From Streptosporangiaceae bacterium (GTDB lineage Bacteria > Actinomycetota > Actinomycetes > Streptosporangiales > Streptosporangiaceae): a stretch of DNA of 38,811 nt. Made by a program: the position numbers and the translations under genes. Of this stretch, positions 4,054 to 38,811 are shown one piece after another (the first letter of the stretch is position 1; every line of letters starts with the position of its first letter). The notes beneath the pieces were generated by a model. The model was not told the DNA's origin. It saw nothing but the letters and a program-made list of their open reading frames with translations, and did not search any database. The stretch lies in NCBI GenBank assembly GCA_030040155.1, contig JASHUG010000316.1, positions 1 to 38,811 on the forward strand, read 5' to 3'.

Positions 4054-4131
4054 GGGCCCTGTCCGGGATTGAGCAACTGGAGCGCGACCATGCTAGGACT
4101 CGGCACTGACATCTGCGTCGGCCGCGGCGGC

Positions 4132-5841
4132 CTAGCCGGACCCGAGCCGCGAACTAGGCTGCCGCAGTGGGCCAGCCGGGGGCGCCAGGCCGCCCGGCGG
4201 GCTCGCCATCTGGCGCATGGCTCTCACCATGTTCCACCGCAGCGCGCCGACGAGGTCGCGCGCGTGCTCGGTGGCGGTGTAGTCGGGCCGGGCCCGGCTC
4301 GCCGCGACGGCTGCGTCGAGGTCATAACCGCACTGGTCGAGGACGATCGAGAAATCCCGTCGGACCGGATCGAGCCGGTCATACCCGAACGACCGCTGGA
4401 TCCGCGGAAACAACGACCGGTACAGCCGGGCTCGCTCGTGCAGGCCGGAGGAGTGCGACATCGGGTTCTTGGGCCGCTCAAGGACGTAAGCGGGCAGCAT
4501 GTCGCGGAATGCACGCCGCACGATCCATTTCTCCTGGCCGTCGCGGATCTTCAGCGCAGCGGGAATCCGCATGGCCAGTTCGACCAGCGCAAGGTCAAGG
4601 AACGGCACCCTCGCCTCGACGCCCTGACCCATGCTCACCCGGTCGACTCGCTGCAGCTCCGTCCGGTGCAGATTCCTGATCTTGTACTGGAACAGGCGCC
4701 GCGACGAGGCCGGCCCGATCCGTTCGTACATCGCGTACCCGCCGAACAGCTCGTCCGAGCCGTCTCCGGTCAGCACGACCTTGATCCCCAGCTCATGGGC
4801 TCGCGCGAACAGCGGCACCGAGACGACGGCGTTGATGATGTCTCCGTATTCGGTGAGCTCTGACATGCGGATCGCCTCCCGAATGAGGCGTGGGCCGATG
4901 CCAAGACGCGATACTGACACGACCTCGTGCCGTACCCCGAGGTCGGTGGCTAGGCGGCGAGCGTAGTACAGGTCCTCGCTGTCGGCTGAGCCGATCGTGA
5001 GCGCGACGCAGTCCGGGTGCATCTCCCTGACGTGCAGCAGCACCAGCGAGCTATCCAGACCACCCGACAAGATCACGCCGACTGTCAGGTCGGTGTCGAC
5101 CCGAACGCGAATGCTGTCCTCGAGCGCGAGCCGCAGCTGCTTGGCGGCCTCGGCCGGATCGTCGATAGCGTCCTTATCCTCGCCGAGAAGCTGGAGGTTG
5201 ACGTACGGGGTCAGAAGCGGGCCGAGGATCGGGGCTCCGCCGGCGAAGCAAACCCAGCCATGATGCCCAGGCGGAACCTCGGACACCGGCATACCGGTCG
5301 GCACGAGAGCCTTGATCTCGGAGGCGACATACAGCCGCCCGGCACCAGCCGACCAGTACAGCGGCTTCACTCCGACCGGATCACGGGCCAGGTAGGTCCG
5401 CCCCTGGGCGCGATCCACGACGGCAAAGGCGAACTCGCCGCGGAAGCGCGCGACCGCATCCTCACCCCAGTGCGCAAACGCCTCGAGCACGACCTCGGTG
5501 TCGCTCTCGCTGCGAAATTCCCGGCCGACCCTGAGCAGTTCCGTGCGAAGCTGCCGGTAGTTGAAGAGCTCGCCGTTGTAGCACAGCAACCAGCGGCCGT
5601 CGGCGGACTGCCACGGCTGAGCGGCGCGCTCACGGTCCACGATGCGCAACCGCTGCGTGCCCGCGAGCAGGCCGGGCTCACAGACGGTCTCCTCGACCTC
5701 ACCACGCGGCGCCAGCGACTCCAGCATCCGCCCGAACAGAGCCTGATCCGCGTCGCTGACGCCGGACGCGCCCGCGTCTGACCGGTCCGTGCTAGGCCCA
5801 GGCGCTACGCCGGGCCCGACGATCAGCCCAATCCCGCACAT
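4132..5841 (-). CDS. Asparagine synthase (glutamine-hydrolysing), AsnB-type amidotransferase
   Basis: Start set at MCGIG (nucleophile Cys2). GATase II residues YNGELFNYRQLR and SDTEVVLEAF; synthetase P-loop VILSGGLDSSLVL; GDGSDELFGGY. Confidence 0.92.
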   Translation of the reverse strand: MCGIGLIVGPGVAPGPSTDRSDAGASGVSDADQALFGRMLESLAPRGEVEETVCEPGLLAGTQRLRIVDRERAAQPWQSADGRWLLCYNGELFNYRQLRTELLRVGREFRSESDTEVVLEAFAHWGEDAVARFRGEFAFAVVDRAQGRTYLARDPVGVKPLYWSAGAGRLYVASEIKALVPTGMPVSEVPPGHHGWVCFAGGAPILGPLLTPYVNLQLLGEDKDAIDDPAEAAKQLRLALEDSIRVRVDTDLTVGVILSGGLDSSLVLLHVREMHPDCVALTIGSADSEDLYYARRLATDLGVRHEVVSVSRLGIGPRLIREAIRMSELTEYGDIINAVVSVPLFARAHELGIKVVLTGDGSDELFGGYAMYERIGPASSRRLFQYKIRNLHRTELQRVDRVSMGQGVEARVPFLDLALVELAMRIPAALKIRDGQEKWIVRRAFRDMLPAYVLERPKNPMSHSSGLHERARLYRSLFPRIQRSFGYDRLDPVRRDFSIVLDQCGYDLDAAVAASRARPDYTATEHARDLVGALRWNMVRAMRQMASPPGGLAPPAGPLRQPSSRLGSG

Positions 5842-18601: not shown

Positions 18602-19102
18602 ATGTCGACCACCAAGCAGAAGGAAGCCGCCAAGAAGAACATCGCCAAGGCCCGCGAAGTCCAGAGCGAGCGGGCCCACGGCGCGAAGATCCCGAGGCAG
18701 ACCAGGGGCCTGAGCACCGCGCAAGAAGACAGGCTGCCCGACAAGGACTTTGCCTTCCCCAAGGAGCGCAAGGAACCGCTGACCGACGCCAGGCACGTAC
18801 GCAACGCGGTCGCGCGCTTCGATCAGGTCGAGGGCGTTACCGACTCCGAACGGGACAAGGCCTGGAAGCGGATACGCGCCGCAGCCAAGCGCTTCGACGT
18901 CGATGTATCCGAGTCCGACTGGCGCGACCTCTACAAGGGGGACAAGAAGGCGGCCAAGGCGCCCGCCTCCAGGGCAGCTAAGCCATCGGCGTCCAAGGCA
19001 CCAGCAGCAAAGACACCCGCGGCCAAGGCACCAGCAGCCAAGACACCCGCCGCCAAGGCATCCGCAGCAAAAACACCCGCGGCCAAGGCAGCCAAGCGCT
19101 AG
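18602..19102 (+). CDS. DUF6582-like protein with histone-H1-like Lys/Ala/Pro tail
   Basis: RHVRNAVARFDQVEGVTDSERDKAWKRIRAAAKRFDVDVSESDWRDL followed by PAAKTPAAKAPAAKTPAAKASAAKTPAAKAAKR. Confidence 0.7.
   Translation: MSTTKQKEAAKKNIAKAREVQSERAHGAKIPRQTRGLSTAQEDRLPDKDFAFPKERKEPLTDARHVRNAVARFDQVEGVTDSERDKAWKRIRAAAKRFDVDVSESDWRDLYKGDKKAAKAPASRAAKPSASKAPAAKTPAAKAPAAKTPAAKASAAKTPAAKAAKR
18957..19100 (+). repeat. Low-complexity tandem repeat encoding the [K/S]-x-PAAK tail
   Basis: Degenerate gca-cca-gca-gc(a/c)-aag-(a/g)c units translating to repeated APAAKTPAAK. Confidence 0.8.
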
Positions 19103-19154
19103 CGATCCTGAGCGTGGCAGGACAGTCCGCCCCCCGCTGACCCATTCCGTGATC

Positions 19155-32090: not shown

Positions 32091-32257
32091 ACCGAGCCAT
32101 CGGACGACGTGCGGGTGCCAGGGCAAATTGCCGGAGTTATGACACCGGCCGGCGCCCGCACTGAGGCCGGGTGGATGCAGAAGACCCCGGACCGGGTAAT
32201 GCAGTCGCGTAATAAAACTTCGCCCTAGGGGACTGATCCACCACGCAGAGGTCAGAC

Positions 32258-32587
32258 ATGTATAGCGAACTCACCGTGCCTGATTTTCCGGACCTGCCGG
32301 AACTGGCCGACAGCATCGGGCCAGCGGAGGCAGAACGGGCGTTGCCCGACATCCTCGCGGCCGTTGCCGGTGCCAACCGCATACTTTCCAGCAACGAGCC
32401 GGCGCCCATCACCGCACCGCAGGCCGAGACGCTGGCCGGCTACACGGCGGGCCTAGTCGAAAAGCTCAGGCAGTGGCTCCAGGCGCTCTACGCACGGCTG
32501 CGCGCCATCGCCCTTGCGCTGGGTGCTCTGTCGTACTCGGTCACGGTCGGGACATCGATCAGTGTCACGATTGGTTTCGGCGACTGA
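32258..32587 (+). CDS. Hypothetical protein
   Basis: 109 aa with ATG start; no family recognised. Confidence 0.45.
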   Translation: MYSELTVPDFPDLPELADSIGPAEAERALPDILAAVAGANRILSSNEPAPITAPQAETLAGYTAGLVEKLRQWLQALYARLRAIALALGALSYSVTVGTSISVTIGFGD

Positions 32588-32648
32588 GATCAGCCAGAAA
32601 GCAACGCCCGCCGTGCACCGCGGGCCCGAACCGCGATGGAGGATCCCG

Positions 32649-33068
32649 ATGAGCCAGGATGATCGCCCAAACCCGGAGACAGGCTTCGTTCTGACGCACT
32701 TCCTGGTCGTCGCCGATCAGGACCGGTCCCGTGACTTCTATGCGGACGTGTTCGGGGCGAAGGTCGTCCGGGAGCGCGATCCGGTCATCATGAAGCTGGC
32801 GAACAGCTGGCTCATCTTGAACGTAGGCGGAGGACCAACTGACGACAAGCCAACCGTCACGCTCATCACCCCGCCCGACCCCAATCAGACAAGCGCCTTC
32901 CTGAACATCCGGGTCGCTGACATCCAGGCTGTGTACCGCGATTGGTCTGCGCGCGGCGCCGAGTTCCTCACCGAGCCCAAGGACCATCCCAGCGAGTTCC
33001 GCGCATACATCCGCGACCCGGACGGCCACCTCATCGAGGTTGGCCAGTCGAAGGCCAGGACGGGCTAG
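32649..33068 (+). CDS. VOC (glyoxalase) family protein
   Basis: TGFVLTHFLVVADQDRSRDFYADVFGAKVVRERDPVIMKLAN...AFLNIRVADIQAVYRDWSARGAEFLTEPKDHPSEFRAYIRDPDGHLIEVGQS. Confidence 0.88.
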   Translation: MSQDDRPNPETGFVLTHFLVVADQDRSRDFYADVFGAKVVRERDPVIMKLANSWLILNVGGGPTDDKPTVTLITPPDPNQTSAFLNIRVADIQAVYRDWSARGAEFLTEPKDHPSEFRAYIRDPDGHLIEVGQSKARTG

Positions 33069-33102
33069 GGCTCGCCTTCTACCGCGCCGGCCACGTGCGA
33101 GA

Positions 33103-33134
33103 GTGCCCCGCCCCCTCGGGGAAGGGCGGGGCAC
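33103..33134. terminator. Strong bidirectional stem-loop between convergent genes
   Basis: GTGCCCCGCCC-cctcggggaa-GGGCGGGGCAC: perfect 11-bp GC-rich arms between the ends of convergent genes (33068 and 33220). Confidence 0.8.
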
Positions 33135-33219
33135 TGGTCCGCGCGGCCGGCCGTGCGATAGCCCAGGCGGGGGTGACCTGAGCCGGGGGTGGCATCGGCC
33201 GCGCGGCGGTCAGGAGGGG

Positions 33220-33975
33220 TCAGAAGCCGGGAGTGGCCGTGGAGATGTCGTAGTTCGACCCCCAGTACCACTGCGTGGCCGAAGACCCAGGCACCACGTG
33301 AGGCACACCGGTCGGGTCCGCGATCCACCAGCGCACGTGCGACTGCTCCGCGCCCGGCACCGCGGCGTGCACTGCCGACTGCGCGGCAGACCATTCCGAC
33401 CGCATTGTGTAGATGATCGCCTGTCCGCTCGGGTCGGCATGCAGCTTCTGCGCCGCCCAGCTGCCGGCCGCGGCCGGTGTCACATCACCAGGCTCGACGT
33501 CCAGGGCACTGGCTCGCGGGTCCGACCCGTTGGTGTCGATCCACAGCACCTTCTTGCCGGCCATCGCGCCCGGCGAGACCGCGAACGGCCCGTCGGCATA
33601 GGTGGCCTCTTCATGGCCCGACGGGATCGCCGACGGTGTCACCGAGTCATAGATCTCGTATGGCCGGGCCCGCGCGGAATCGCCTCGCACCGACGGCGCA
33701 TCCGCCCGGCGATCACTCACGAGCGTGGCATGCCGAGATACGGGCACGTGACGCTCAGCCGCAGTGCGGCGCTCGGTCGCCCCAAGCTGATCGCGCTCGT
33801 GTGCCACGGCGGCGACAGTCGCCGCGTGCTGGCCGGGCGTGTACGGCGAGGCGGCACCGACGGTCGCGGCAGTGGCGGTGCCCGCACCGGCCGCCAGCGC
33901 GGCGGCGGCGCCGAGAAGTGCTGCAGCCTTACGATGACCGCGCAGCGCATCGGTCAGTCGGGCAGTGCGGGGCAT
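33220..33975 (-). CDS. Secreted hypothetical protein
   Basis: Signal-like N-terminus RGHRKAAALLGAAAALAAGAGTATAA; C-terminal VLWIDTNGSDPRASALDVEPGDVTPAAAGSWAAQKL...WYWGSNYDIS. Possibly glycoside hydrolase-like fold; unassigned. Confidence 0.6.
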   Translation of the reverse strand: MPRTARLTDALRGHRKAAALLGAAAALAAGAGTATAATVGAASPYTPGQHAATVAAVAHERDQLGATERRTAAERHVPVSRHATLVSDRRADAPSVRGDSARARPYEIYDSVTPSAIPSGHEEATYADGPFAVSPGAMAGKKVLWIDTNGSDPRASALDVEPGDVTPAAAGSWAAQKLHADPSGQAIIYTMRSEWSAAQSAVHAAVPGAEQSHVRWWIADPTGVPHVVPGSSATQWYWGSNYDISTATPGF

Positions 33976-34283
33976 GAAGCGTCCTTCCTGTGGGGGGTTC
34001 CGCGCGGCCTGGGCGACTCGCCCGGTGTCCGTCACGGTGAGCAACGGGAGGTTCGACGTCGCGCGAGCGAAGCTGGTTTCGCACTGAGACCTACTTCACT
34101 ACTGGCGGGTAATGCTGCTGCCCGGTTATCCGGATATAGACCGGCAAACCGTCGGCGAAGACGGGCCAGCGGCCGACTGTCCGAGGGCAGAAACCGACCA
34201 GAAACGGCCGTTAAATGGGGTTCTGGGGTCGCCGACAGCCGGCGGAACCAGTACCGGCTAGGCCGCCCACGAGGTTGACCGCC

Positions 34284-35051
34284 CTATGCGGCCATCGGAG
34301 CCGTGGCCGTAGCCATGAGCCGGCGCATCAGGCCGAACGTCGGCAGCACGCTGACAGCCTCATCGTGGAGAGATTGCAGCGCCGCATCGTCGCCAGGGTC
34401 AAGCGCGGCTGCCTCCTCCCACATCGCCAGCTCGCGCTCCCGCCAGCCGGGCCGGTCCAGCACCTCGACGCTCGCGAAGCCGGCCCCGGTCAGCCCGCCG
34501 CCGAGGTCGACAAGGCGCAGTCGTTCCGGTATGCGCTCGTCGGCGCTGCTTGTTTCCCAGCAGGTCAGCACCGCCCGCCCGCCCGGACCAAGCACCCGCC
34601 GCAACTCCGCATAGGCGGCGGCTGGGTCACGTGCGAACTGAATGGCGTCGACGCACAGCACACCGTCGACCGAACCAGAATCCAGGCCGGTCGCGGCGAG
34701 GTCTGCGACCCGAAAGTCGGCCGCGCGACCCAGGCGCCGCGCGTGCTCACGGGCCTGGCGCACAGCCTCGGCGGAAAAGTCAACCCCGATCAGCGCGGCG
34801 CCGCTACGGCCCGCAACCTCCAGGCCGTAGCCGCCGCGGCCGCATGCGAGGTCGAGCAGCGTGGCACCCGGATTGAGTTGGAGGGCAGCCACAACCTCGC
34901 CGATGCCCTCCCAGCCCAGCAAGCTGCTCGACAGCAGGGCTGGCGGCAGGCCTAAGTGTCGCTGCACGATCTCGTCTTTGACCGGCGAGCCCGCCATATC
35001 GGCGTACCAGTTGTTGAACGTCGTCACCTCAGGCCACGGCTTTGGCGCCAT
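34284..35051 (-). CDS. Class I SAM-dependent methyltransferase
   Basis: ATLLDLACGRGGYGLEVAGRSGAALIGVDFSAEAVRQAREHA...DSGSVDGVLCVDAIQFARDPAAAYAELRRVLGPGGRAVLTCWE. Start at ATG 35051. Confidence 0.92.
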   Translation of the reverse strand: MAPKPWPEVTTFNNWYADMAGSPVKDEIVQRHLGLPPALLSSSLLGWEGIGEVVAALQLNPGATLLDLACGRGGYGLEVAGRSGAALIGVDFSAEAVRQAREHARRLGRAADFRVADLAATGLDSGSVDGVLCVDAIQFARDPAAAYAELRRVLGPGGRAVLTCWETSSADERIPERLRLVDLGGGLTGAGFASVEVLDRPGWRERELAMWEEAAALDPGDDAALQSLHDEAVSVLPTFGLMRRLMATATAPMAA

Positions 35052-35094
35052 TCGCCCAGTATGCACCCGAAGGATTGTGGTCGTCCGGTGCTGC

Positions 35095-35133
35095 GCCACG
35101 CTCGGCCCAAACCTGCCTGCGATTCGCTCGGAC
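35095..35133. repeat. 39-bp direct repeat, copy 1
   Basis: gccacgctcggcccaaacctgcctgcgattcgctcggac; 37/39 identical to 36283-36321. Confidence 0.9.
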
Positions 35134-35148
35134 CTGAGTTGGCTCACG
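35133..35148 (+). repeat. 16-bp inverted repeat, left arm
   Basis: cctgagttggctcacg; exact reverse complement of 36268-36283. Confidence 0.9.
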
Positions 35149-35197
35149 TTACGCGAACTGGCTAGCGAGTCGCCAGATGACGCCGTGGAGAGACCTC

Positions 35198-35839
35198 CTA
35201 TGCCGGGCGAGATGAGAAAACGAGAACCGCAAAGATGCCTGTACAGGCCCAGACAGCTATGAAGCCGACACCGAGGCAGTTGACGGTAACCCAGTTCTTT
35301 CCGCGCCCGCGGAACAGGGCCGGCAGGTGTTTATGCTCCCGCCTGCGTTCGGATTGCCTGCGGCCGACCAGCGAGTAGATCGACTCGGAGGTTTTTAGCA
35401 GCTCAAGCGAGGCGCCGACGTCGGCGAAATTCAGCCTGAACAGGTACCAGAAGATGACGGAGAGGCTAAAGCCAGCGAGAATGATGATGAGGCTGAACGC
35501 GAACACCTCCGCCCGAAGCTCAAGGCGGGCGGGTGATGTCATGCCAGCGACTACGCTGACCAGCGAAGCTGCAGTAGCGAGGAAGATCGACTCGGCGACA
35601 AGGAAGAACGCCACTCGCTGCGAAAGCTGATTGTCATCGTGAGCGAAGTACTGCCACAGCCTGTCTAGATCGCGCTCTTCGAGAGTGACCGGGCCTTGCA
35701 CTTGTCCCGCTATTTCTTCTGGCATCCCCCGCGCTTGCTGCGGCTCGCACATACCGGGCCGGTCGAGCGGTTGTCCCGGAGGTGGGCCCTCTTCCGGCAA
35801 GCGCTCGTAACCACCGGCCATATCAGGCTGCATCGGCAT
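35198..35839 (-). CDS. Putative 3-TM membrane protein, unassigned family
   Basis: Three hydrophobic helices (VAFFLVAESIFLATAASLVSVVAGM; VFAFSLIIILAGFSLSVIFWYLF; WVTVNCLGVGFIAVWACTGIFAVLVF). ATG at 35839 with upstream GGGAG. Confidence 0.6.
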   Translation of the reverse strand: MPMQPDMAGGYERLPEEGPPPGQPLDRPGMCEPQQARGMPEEIAGQVQGPVTLEERDLDRLWQYFAHDDNQLSQRVAFFLVAESIFLATAASLVSVVAGMTSPARLELRAEVFAFSLIIILAGFSLSVIFWYLFRLNFADVGASLELLKTSESIYSLVGRRQSERRREHKHLPALFRGRGKNWVTVNCLGVGFIAVWACTGIFAVLVFSSRPA

Positions 35840-36267
35840 CTCCCATTGCAGACGTTCAGATAAGAGACGGTTGTTCAGTGGTGCAGGGTTACCGGTCAGC
35901 TCGGCGACCACCGGCCAGCTAGCCTTCCTCGGGATCTCGGTAGGGCTCTTGGCGGGCCAGCCGAGCCACATGAAGACCTGCTGGGTTTGAGTTCTCTGGC
36001 GCTCATCCGCCTGCTATTGCGGCTCGTCGAGTGGCTCGTGCAGTTCCTGGACCTGCAGATCGGGAGCTGCGGCGAGTCTCGTCCGTCCGCTGCCGGTCGC
36101 AAGCCTGAGTGGACAACCTGCACCGCCGCTGCGCCCGACGCGGTCCTGACCGTCCAGACGTACGCGCGCACCACGCCGCTCTAAGGATCCGAATGAGTGC
36201 GCAGATTCGCTCAACAAAAGCCGGCAACCCGCAGGTCAGCGCGCTGAGGCCGCCGCAACTCCATGAT

Positions 36268-36283
36268 CGTGAGCCAACTCAGG
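36268..36283 (-). repeat. 16-bp inverted repeat, right arm
   Basis: cgtgagccaactcagg; exact reverse complement of 35133-35148. Confidence 0.9.
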
Positions 36284-36321
36284 CCACGCTCGGCCCAAAC
36301 CTGCCTGGGATTCGGTCGGAC
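36283..36321. repeat. 39-bp direct repeat, copy 2
   Basis: gccacgctcggcccaaacctgcctgggattcggtcggac; two mismatches to copy 1. Confidence 0.9.
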
Positions 36322-36361
36322 ATCCAAAAGCAACGGCGCTGGCCCGCGCCAACTGGGCGTC

Positions 36362-36967
36362 TTACCGGTGGGCGGCCGCCGCTCGGTGCTTGGTGAGCGA
36401 GTGCGTTACCGACGCTATGAGGATCTCCTTGACGGAATCCCGGCGGCGCGCATCGCACAGCAGGACGGGCACGTCGGAATCCAGGTCCAAGGCATCGCGG
36501 ATCGTCTCGGTGTCGTACTCGGGCGCACCGTCGAACTTGTTAGCCGCGACCACGAACGGGGTCCTCCGCCGCTCGAAATAGTCGACGGACGAGAAGCAGT
36601 CGGCCAATCGCCTGGTGTCGGCGAGCACGACAGCACCGAGCGCACCGTAAGCAAGCTCGTCCCACATGAACCAGAATCGTTCCTGCCCCGGCGTGCCGAA
36701 CAGGTAAAGCACGACGCCGCTCGGAAAGGTGATCCTGCCGAAGTCCATCGCCACCGTCGTCGTGTGCTTGTGTTCCACCACGGCCGTGTCATCGACTCCG
36801 ACTCCGACCTCGCTGAGCACCTCCTCCGTGCGCAGCGGCCGTACCTCGCTGATCGCCCCAACCAGCGTGGTCTTCCCTACCCCGAAGCCCCCCGCGATCA
36901 GGATCTTCGTGACGACCGGCGCAGCTATGGCTCCCGCCACTGCCTCATAGCGCGCGGAGTCCATCAA
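36362..36967 (-). CDS. Conservon-type GTP/ATP-binding protein (CvnD-like)
   Basis: ILIAGGFGVGKTTLVGAISEVRPLRTEEVLSEVGVGVDD...TTTVAMDFGRI...LFGTPGQERFWFMWDELAYGALGAVVLADTRR. Confidence 0.92.
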   Translation of the reverse strand: MMDSARYEAVAGAIAAPVVTKILIAGGFGVGKTTLVGAISEVRPLRTEEVLSEVGVGVDDTAVVEHKHTTTVAMDFGRITFPSGVVLYLFGTPGQERFWFMWDELAYGALGAVVLADTRRLADCFSSVDYFERRRTPFVVAANKFDGAPEYDTETIRDALDLDSDVPVLLCDARRRDSVKEILIASVTHSLTKHRAAAAHR

Positions 36968-37316
36968 GCACGCTCCTCATCACACTTTCTTCCAGAGTGC
37001 ACACCGCGGGCGGGCGGGCAACGGTCACCGCGCCGCGTTCCAGGAGGTCGCCGAGCAGGACCCGCACGACGCCCAGCGGCAGGTCCGTTTCTGACGCGAG
37101 TTCCGCAACCGCGGTGGGCGCGCGGCACAGGTGCAGCAGGCGCCGATGCTCGGGCCCCAGCCCTCGGGCGTCGACCACGAGAGGCCCGGCTGCCGCAACA
37201 TGGTCGATCAAGCCCAGCGCGGCGCCGTGCGGCCTCGTCCGGCCACGGGTAAGTGCGTACGGTCGGACGACCGGACCGGCCTCCCGATCGAGCCACCTAT
37301 CTCCGCCGTCAGTCAT
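36945..37316 (-). CDS. DUF742 family protein (CvnC-like)
   Basis: VVRPYALTRGRTRPHGAALGLIDHV...GLGPEHRRLLHLCRAPTAVAELASETDLPLGVVRVLLGDLLERGAVTV. Start at ATG 37316. Confidence 0.9.
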   Translation of the reverse strand: MTDGGDRWLDREAGPVVRPYALTRGRTRPHGAALGLIDHVAAAGPLVVDARGLGPEHRRLLHLCRAPTAVAELASETDLPLGVVRVLLGDLLERGAVTVARPPAVCTLEESVMRSVLDGLRAL

Positions 37317-37747
37317 TCCATCAGCCGATCCACTGCCGCCACGGCGACTTCCGCTGACCTCGGGTTCGTCGACAGGTACTGACCAAGGCGCTTGACGAGC
37401 ATGGCCATCTCGTAAACGACAAGGCCGTGGTCTGCATCTGCCGGGCAAAGCGCCGCAAGGCAACTTCCCTGTCCGGCGGCCATGACGAACATCAGAGCCG
37501 TATCCATCTGAACAATTGTCTGCCGGGCCTCGCCACCGTGGAAGCGGAGGGCGGCACCGCGCGCGAGGCTCTGCATTCCGGCCGCCACCGCGGCCATGTG
37601 CTCGGCGTCCTCGCGACTCAGGCCGTCTGACGCTCCGAGCGTTAGGCCGTCGCGGGACAGGAGGACCGCCTGACTGATGCCGCTGACCCTGCGCACCAGA
37701 TCATCGAGAACCCAGTCCATCGTCGCTGAAAAGGCCCCCTGCTCCAT
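37313..37747 (-). CDS. Roadblock/LC7 domain protein (CvnB-like)
   Basis: MDWVLDDLVRRVSGISQAVLLSRDGLTLGASDGLSREDAEHMAAVAAGMQSLARGAALRFHGGEARQTIVQMD. ATG at 37747. Confidence 0.92.
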   Translation of the reverse strand: MEQGAFSATMDWVLDDLVRRVSGISQAVLLSRDGLTLGASDGLSREDAEHMAAVAAGMQSLARGAALRFHGGEARQTIVQMDTALMFVMAAGQGSCLAALCPADADHGLVVYEMAMLVKRLGQYLSTNPRSAEVAVAAVDRLME

Positions 37748-38811
37748 CACTCCCCCCCATCGTCCTCCGGCCAGGCGGCCAGATCCGGGTTTCCGGCTGG
37801 CGATGGCCACGACTCCCCGGCCGACGGCGGCGTCCAAGACTCACCGGGCGTCGGCGGCCGCGACTTGTCGGCAGGTGTCGAACCGGCTCCTTCCCCCGGT
37901 TCGCCAGAGGACTTAGCGAGTTCGAGTCCGAACTGCAGCGACTGTACGAGGGCTCGGGTCTCCGCCGGGTTGGGTCCGTAGCCGGCCGGCTCGTTGTTGC
38001 CTTCTGGCTCGCTCGCGCTCACCTGAGTGCTCTCGGGTACCAACGGATCATCAGTCTTGAGCTGTGGCGCGAGGCTAGCCTGGCGGACCCGGCGTGGCAA
38101 CCACGGCTTATCGGAGTCGACCGGCCTTGGCGCAACCAGGCGCGGGGACTCCGGCCAGGCAGAGTCGTCGTCGTCGTCGGTCACCGCAGATGCATGTCTG
38201 CCGTTCCCCGGTCCGGGCGCCGAGGTATCGGCACCGTTAGGCGATCCGACCGACGGATTGATGCGGAACATATCGAATGCCTGACCGCTGGGAGCCCCCG
38301 GCTGCCGCGCCGCGCCCGCAGGCTCGCCGACGTCGTCGAGCGGGCCGGATCGGTTGCCGACCAGATCCAGACCGCCGCCGGGCAGGTTCAGGCCACCACC
38401 CGCGGGCTCAAACCTGGGACCAGGGGGCTGCAGGTCGGAACCGGCGGGCTGCAGGCCGGGACTGGAGGGCTCCTGCACTGGCCCCTGAGCACCAACGGCC
38501 AGGTCCAGGTCATCGTGCGCCAGGCCGGTGGTGGCTAGCTCTTGACCGGCGTTGCCGACAACCCCGGGGCCAGCGGCGGCCAGCCCGGGGCCGGCGTTGC
38601 TGACGAGCCCGGGTCCAGTGGAGGCGAGCCCAGGGCTGGTGTCAGCGACGTCCCCGCCACCGCCGGCCGCGAGCTCGCGCCCACCGCCGGGCTCGTGCGC
38701 AACGCCGCGGAAATCCGGTCCGCTGCCGCCCTGGTCGCGTCCGCTGCCGGCAAGTTCCCGGCCTGCGCTGATGAGCTCGCGGCCGTTCCCGATGACGCGA
38801 ACTCCGGGGGT
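37747..38811 (-). CDS. C-terminal part of a large Pro/Gly-rich protein, probably the conservon sensor kinase (CvnA-like); runs off right edge
   Basis: I translated the frame of ORF 37747..38478 from the window edge (38811) without meeting a stop: ...NGRELISAGRELAGSGRDQGG...TSPGLASTGPGLVSNAGPGLAAAGPGVVGNAG.... Position upstream of roadblock/DUF742/GTPase fits cvnA; the catalytic domain is outside the window. Confidence 0.65.
   Translation of the reverse strand, partial: TPGVRVIGNGRELISAGRELAGSGRDQGGSGPDFRGVAHEPGGGRELAAGGGGDVADTSPGLASTGPGLVSNAGPGLAAAGPGVVGNAGQELATTGLAHDDLDLAVGAQGPVQEPSSPGLQPAGSDLQPPGPRFEPAGGGLNLPGGGLDLVGNRSGPLDDVGEPAGAARQPGAPSGQAFDMFRINPSVGSPNGADTSAPGPGNGRHASAVTDDDDDSAWPESPRLVAPRPVDSDKPWLPRRVRQASLAPQLKTDDPLVPESTQVSASEPEGNNEPAGYGPNPAETRALVQSLQFGLELAKSSGEPGEGAGSTPADKSRPPTPGESWTPPSAGESWPSPAGNPDLAAWPEDDGGE

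Follow-up and report, generated by a model that had tools for sequence, protein, structure and literature searches.

An IS1634-family derivative resembling a mobile insertion cassette carries a membrane-protein gene in a Streptosporangiaceae genome

Results

A 1,151-bp element with inverted repeats inside direct repeats

Near one end of the 38,811-nucleotide stretch of DNA analysed here (the window), an element bounded by inverted repeats lies between a SAM-methyltransferase gene and the GTPase gene of a conservon-like signalling-gene cluster, with both of these genes and the ORF inside the element on the minus strand (Table 1). The first-pass annotation had described 39-bp direct repeats, identical at 37 positions, outside exact inverted repeats that enclose an insert of about 1.15 kb, and each of these observations was reproduced. 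The direct repeats occupy 35095-35133 and 36283-36321 (37/39 identical), and CCTGAGTTGGCTCACG at 35133-35148 on the plus strand pairs with 36268-36283 on the minus strand at 16 of 16 positions. The same annotation had the inverted repeats abutting the 39-mers, which is correct as regards the common register on both sides but overlooks one shared base per side, where the outermost position of the inverted repeat coincides with the edge of the 39-mer. Without this overlap, the duplication proper is 37 bp long.

A match of at least 35 of 37 bases at a fixed register has a chance of about 5e-18, and of 1,104 position pairs drawn at random from the same loci as a control, 1,103 reached a score of at most 10 and the remaining one a score of 33, compared with 29 for the window duplication. 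The two copies have diverged at 2 of 37 positions, which makes a recent insertion improbable. Neither the 39-mer nor the 16-mer inverted repeat has a further copy in the host genome, and the whole element is likewise present there only once.

Table 1. Coordinates of the element, its parts and the flanking genes in the window
Feature	Position	Strand	Basis and remarks
Whole transposase-less element, MIC-like IS1634-family derivative	35133-36283	.	1,151 bp; inverted-repeat pair (16/16) and flanking duplication; inverted repeats common to IS1634-family elements
Left TSD copy	35096-35132	+	37 bp (39 with two ambiguous edge bases); 35/37 identical to right copy
Right TSD copy	36284-36320	+	35/37 identical to left copy
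Left terminal inverted repeat, CCTGAGTTGGCTCACG	35133-35148	+	Variants terminate IS1634 elements in related genomes
Right terminal inverted repeat, CCTGAGTTGGCTCACG, transposase-start side	36268-36283	-	Exact pair of left inverted repeat
IS1634-type right end (subterminal DNA and transposase gene start)	36107-36283	-	Identity to L175 and L186
Transposase N-terminus remnant, codons ~3-24	36106-36171	-	tblastn, 15/22 identical (68%), E=1e-4; similarity then stops
Passenger ORF, 257 aa, distant relative of 8xMP (octameric membrane protein)	35198-35971	-	ORF list; three predicted long helices; true start possibly an internal codon
SAM-methyltransferase gene (context)	34284-35051	-	PF08241, E=5.7e-19; left TSD copy ~45 bp upstream of ATG
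GTPase gene of conservon-like cluster (context)	36362-36967	-	PF03029, E=1.2e-31

The host assembly comprises 5.6 Mb in 508 contigs and is 74% complete. Two syntenic loci, L044 on contig C315 of the same assembly and L045 on contig C68 of genome G008, are without the element, and since the methyltransferase gene is missing from them too, they provide no clean empty site. No empty site with a single 37-mer was found, the related genomes contain no 39-mer beyond chance, and the 39-mer core has no match in viral contigs. When empty sites were sought with two related insertions, L130 and L101, the left flank of L130 proved not to be conserved, and homology of its right flank begins at a gene end, next to the edge of its duplication. 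The methyltransferase gene, for which the best DNA matches are in other genera (G072, G054, G025), may be a separate gain, as suggested by these matches together with its absence from L044 and L045. Contig C315 holds a second, ~79% identical copy of window positions 32191-38810, which is either a paralogous region or part of a co-binned second species. Rfam and tRNA searches of the window returned nothing. Elsewhere in the window, positions 18974-19105 consist of 15-bp tandem repeats that would encode an Ala/Lys/Pro-rich tail of a putative protein, comparable to actinobacterial HU-like proteins.

The ends belong to the IS1634 family

A search of 298 related genomes with the 16-mer, allowing one mismatch, found CCTGACTTGGCTCACG 12 times in G210 and three times in G146, as well as an opposed inverted-repeat pair 203 bp apart in the congener G007. 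In G210 these variants delimit an element of 1,663 bp that is present in many copies, has CCTGAGTTGGCTCAAT and CCTGACTTGGCTCACG as its two ends and encodes a protein of 511 aa with a hit to the IS1634 family transposase model NF033559 (E=2.9e-109). The window inverted repeat differs from these IS ends by 1-2 bases. Matches to a degenerate pattern of the inverted repeat occurred in 36 of 343 family genomes; the reversed control had just a few.

Similarity to the IS continues inward from the right end of the element. Window positions 36118-36283 are 77.5% identical (E=1e-26) to L175, an IS copy on contig C136 of the congener G007, and positions 36107-36283 are 74.7% identical to L186, an IS of Micromonospora sp. 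C95. Over its outermost 31 bp, the right end shares 90% identity with L101, a MITE in G007. The left end, inside the inverted repeat, has little similarity to IS left ends. Since the right ~170 bp match an IS end that includes about 22 transposase codons, the body of the transposase has been swapped for another gene. Of the DDE transposase that characterises the IS1634 family, only these ~22 N-terminal codons are left, and for this reason we count the element, on the alignments, as a derivative of the family and not as an autonomous member. The initial statement that no transposase is present is wrong in this detail, as it misses the 5' remnant.

The passenger ORF is nearly an orphan

The passenger ORF lies on the same strand as the transposase remnant, beyond the point where similarity to the IS ends. 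Its product scores below threshold against PF24838 (8xMP; E=1.9, 8.8 bits against a gathering cutoff of 30), while the protein of L051, to which it aligns by BLASTP with 28% identity over ~100 aa (E=2e-9), passes this cutoff (E=2.4e-8, 34.3 bits). Because the passenger fails where its aligned relative succeeds, it is to be regarded as a distant relative only of the 8xMP family. A single-sequence structure model has three long helices at low confidence (pLDDT 54.6), too poor for a fold search. No match to the protein was found in plasmids, viral contigs or GTDB contigs, and the element DNA has no similarity in phage or plasmid collections. The ORF is nearly an orphan, with L051 as its sole relative of note.

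Long and variable target duplications accompany the related ends

Direct repeats abutting the outer ends were sought in all fetched elements bounded by these inverted repeats (n=31, including that of the window). Such repeats, most of them exact, were present in 23 of the 31 elements, that is, in the window and in 22 others, with lengths of 19, 26, 37 (window), 49, 54, 55, 60, 73, 101, 103, 119, 119, 124, 127, 129, 134, 142, 151, 163, 201, 260, 567 and 579 bp and a median of 119 bp. The remaining elements (L098, L135, L138, L143, L149, L154, L155 and L163) had no detectable duplication and were kept in the survey but not counted as having TSDs. On the control scale the shortest real duplication scores 19; an earlier control with 459 pairs, in which pairs in register with real duplications were not excluded, reached a maximum of 90. 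Directly outside the inverted repeats, A occupies position -1 at 40 of 62 ends against a background of 17% A, and G occupies position -2 at 35 of 62 ends. The left end of the window element fits this GA preference, with A next to the inverted repeat and G before it (GGA).

The direct repeats differ in both sequence and length at every related insertion, and this variation marks them as target DNA instead of a conserved site. The window 39-mers are accordingly best read, by comparison with these relatives, as a target-site duplication of the long type typical of part of the IS1634 family. Duplications of IS1549 and IS1634 have been reported as 8-514 bp (PMC2266710). What had been flagged as far longer than usual is therefore normal for this branch, and at 39 bp the window duplication lies on the short side for its IS1549-like members.

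Related ends enclose other cargo

Four transposase-less elements besides that of the window have the same inverted repeats and different cargo. The first, L127 (G181, 4097-4894), measures 798 bp, encodes a RibD_C-type reductase and has a duplication of 119 bp (118/119 identical), and the second, L130 in G008, encodes a 458-aa protein between duplication copies matching at 132/134 positions. The third, L098 in G146, carries SDR cargo between remaining transposase codons, 2-19 on one side and 436-511 on the opposite side, and has the same build as the window element, the transposase body being replaced by a passenger gene. The fourth, L149, carries an alpha/beta hydrolase. Two 203-bp MITEs in G007 (L100 and L101), with duplications of 60 and 129 bp, share the inverted repeats and the long TSDs with the window element but are without a passenger gene.

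A further group of 2.9-kb elements (L153, L154, L155 and L158, in G457, G460, G462 and G472) ends in CCTGACTTGGCTCAAG/CCTGACTTGGCTCAAA. These elements, L153 and L158 among them, contain an IS1634 transposase frame together with extra DNA, which in L153 encodes a glyoxalase-family protein and part of an alpha/beta hydrolase. The four elements look like transporter ISs.

Discussion

IS derivatives that have IS ends and a passenger but no transposase are termed mobile insertion cassettes (MICs) and can be activated by a cognate transposase (PMC3129680). The window element has IS ends around a passenger gene and no transposase gene, and we consider it very probable that it is such a cassette, derived from an IS1634-family (IS1549-like) IS in which the transposase was replaced by a passenger, and most likely inserted by a transposase acting in trans. 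The non-autonomous element with a target duplication, which was among the options put forward at first, was the right one, given the IS1634-type inverted repeats and the long TSDs of the relatives, while a new small mobile element it is not, because its inverted repeats belong to an IS of the IS1634 family. The inverted repeat, moreover, recurs as the ends of whole elements, each with its own different duplication, and not as the dispersed unit lacking cassette-like occupancy that had been named as the case against a mobile element.

The course of events that we infer is as follows. An IS1634-family IS would have kept both terminal inverted repeats and the subterminal DNA on the transposase side, while a passenger of the same orientation took the place of its transposase body; in the window element this passenger is a gene which, if expressed, would provide an 8xMP-like three-helix membrane protein. 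An IS1634-type transposase, most likely supplied in trans, would then have recognised the 16-bp ends and inserted the cassette into the interval that separates the methyltransferase gene from the conservon GTPase gene. Joining of the ends to opposite target strands at a distance of 37 bp, followed by filling of the gaps, would have produced the two 37-bp copies.

In known systems, the closest likeness is to IS1549 of Mycobacterium smegmatis and IS1634 of Mycoplasma mycoides, which share ends starting with C and long, variable duplications; the same-IR relatives of the window element are ~1.65 kb long and encode an IS1634 transposase. The window element differs in its length of 1,151 bp, in retaining ~22 transposase codons only and in carrying a passenger. 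In its IS-type ends, its passenger and its lack of a transposase it resembles MIC231 of Bacillus cereus (cited in PMC2266710), which has IS4-family IS231 ends, whereas the ends here are of the IS1634 family and the duplication is 37 bp. This likeness in layout is not proof of mobilisation in trans. As for a source of the enzyme, the host assembly, which is fragmented and 74% complete, yielded no intact IS1634 transposase; one decayed piece with two stops lies at C237:9730-9849, and the congener G007 has transposase pieces ~70% identical to that of G210.

The element might instead be a dead fossil, that is, an IS1634 copy that suffered an internal deletion and later received unrelated DNA, immobile and never mobilised as a cassette. 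We regard this as rather unlikely. In its favour, the TSD copies have diverged at 2 of 37 positions, the element is single-copy and the host has yielded no intact transposase. Against it, both inverted repeats are intact at 16/16, and this build is also seen, with other cargo and separate TSDs, in several independent relatives. The TSD also abuts the outer ends, as would be the case if all 1,151 bp had transposed together once, although a later replacement of the interior is still compatible with this.

A metagenome misassembly that joined repeats and so created the layout is very improbable. The source assembly is fragmented and partly contaminated, and contig C315 offers a 79%-identical copy of the neighbourhood, but neither the repeats nor the element recur in the genome, and the layout agrees to the base with the biology of the IS family at both ends, including the GA outside the left one. 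Least probable of all is the recombinase-dependent cassette initially suggested, in which the 39-mers would be att sites (core and arms) and the inverted repeats the binding arms of a tyrosine or serine recombinase. The layout does recall att architecture, in that inverted repeats abut long direct repeats, but the repeats outside related inverted repeats vary from insertion to insertion (19-579 bp) with no conserved att sequence, the related inverted repeats terminate elements encoding a DDE-type IS1634 transposase, and the window has no tRNA and a 39-mer unique in the genome. A regulatory-repeat reading was rejected, as neither repeat occurs elsewhere in the genome and the flanking repeats differ per insertion.

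A mobile insertion cassette remains our preferred reading, and it bears on two matters beyond this locus. As of 2008, no mechanistic model accounting for the variation in duplication length had been put forward (PMC2266710), and the 23 duplications measured here, 19-579 bp long and with GA favoured outside the ends, constitute a data set for this open question. One may speculate, tentatively, that the actinobacterial IS1634-branch transposase selects a GA site for each end separately, at distances of tens to hundreds of bp and with no fixed stagger, and has spread passenger cassettes (8xMP-like, reductase, SDR, hydrolase) through actinobacteria. In the 2008 survey, passenger modularity had not then been seen outside the IS231 group (PMC2266710), and our literature search, incomplete in its coverage, found no paper on passenger modularity for IS1634. 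The present elements show that an ordinary IS family, if its target duplications are unusual, can give rise to a striking arrangement of direct repeats, inverted repeats and cargo, and that in actinobacteria passenger genes are carried between IS1634-type ends.
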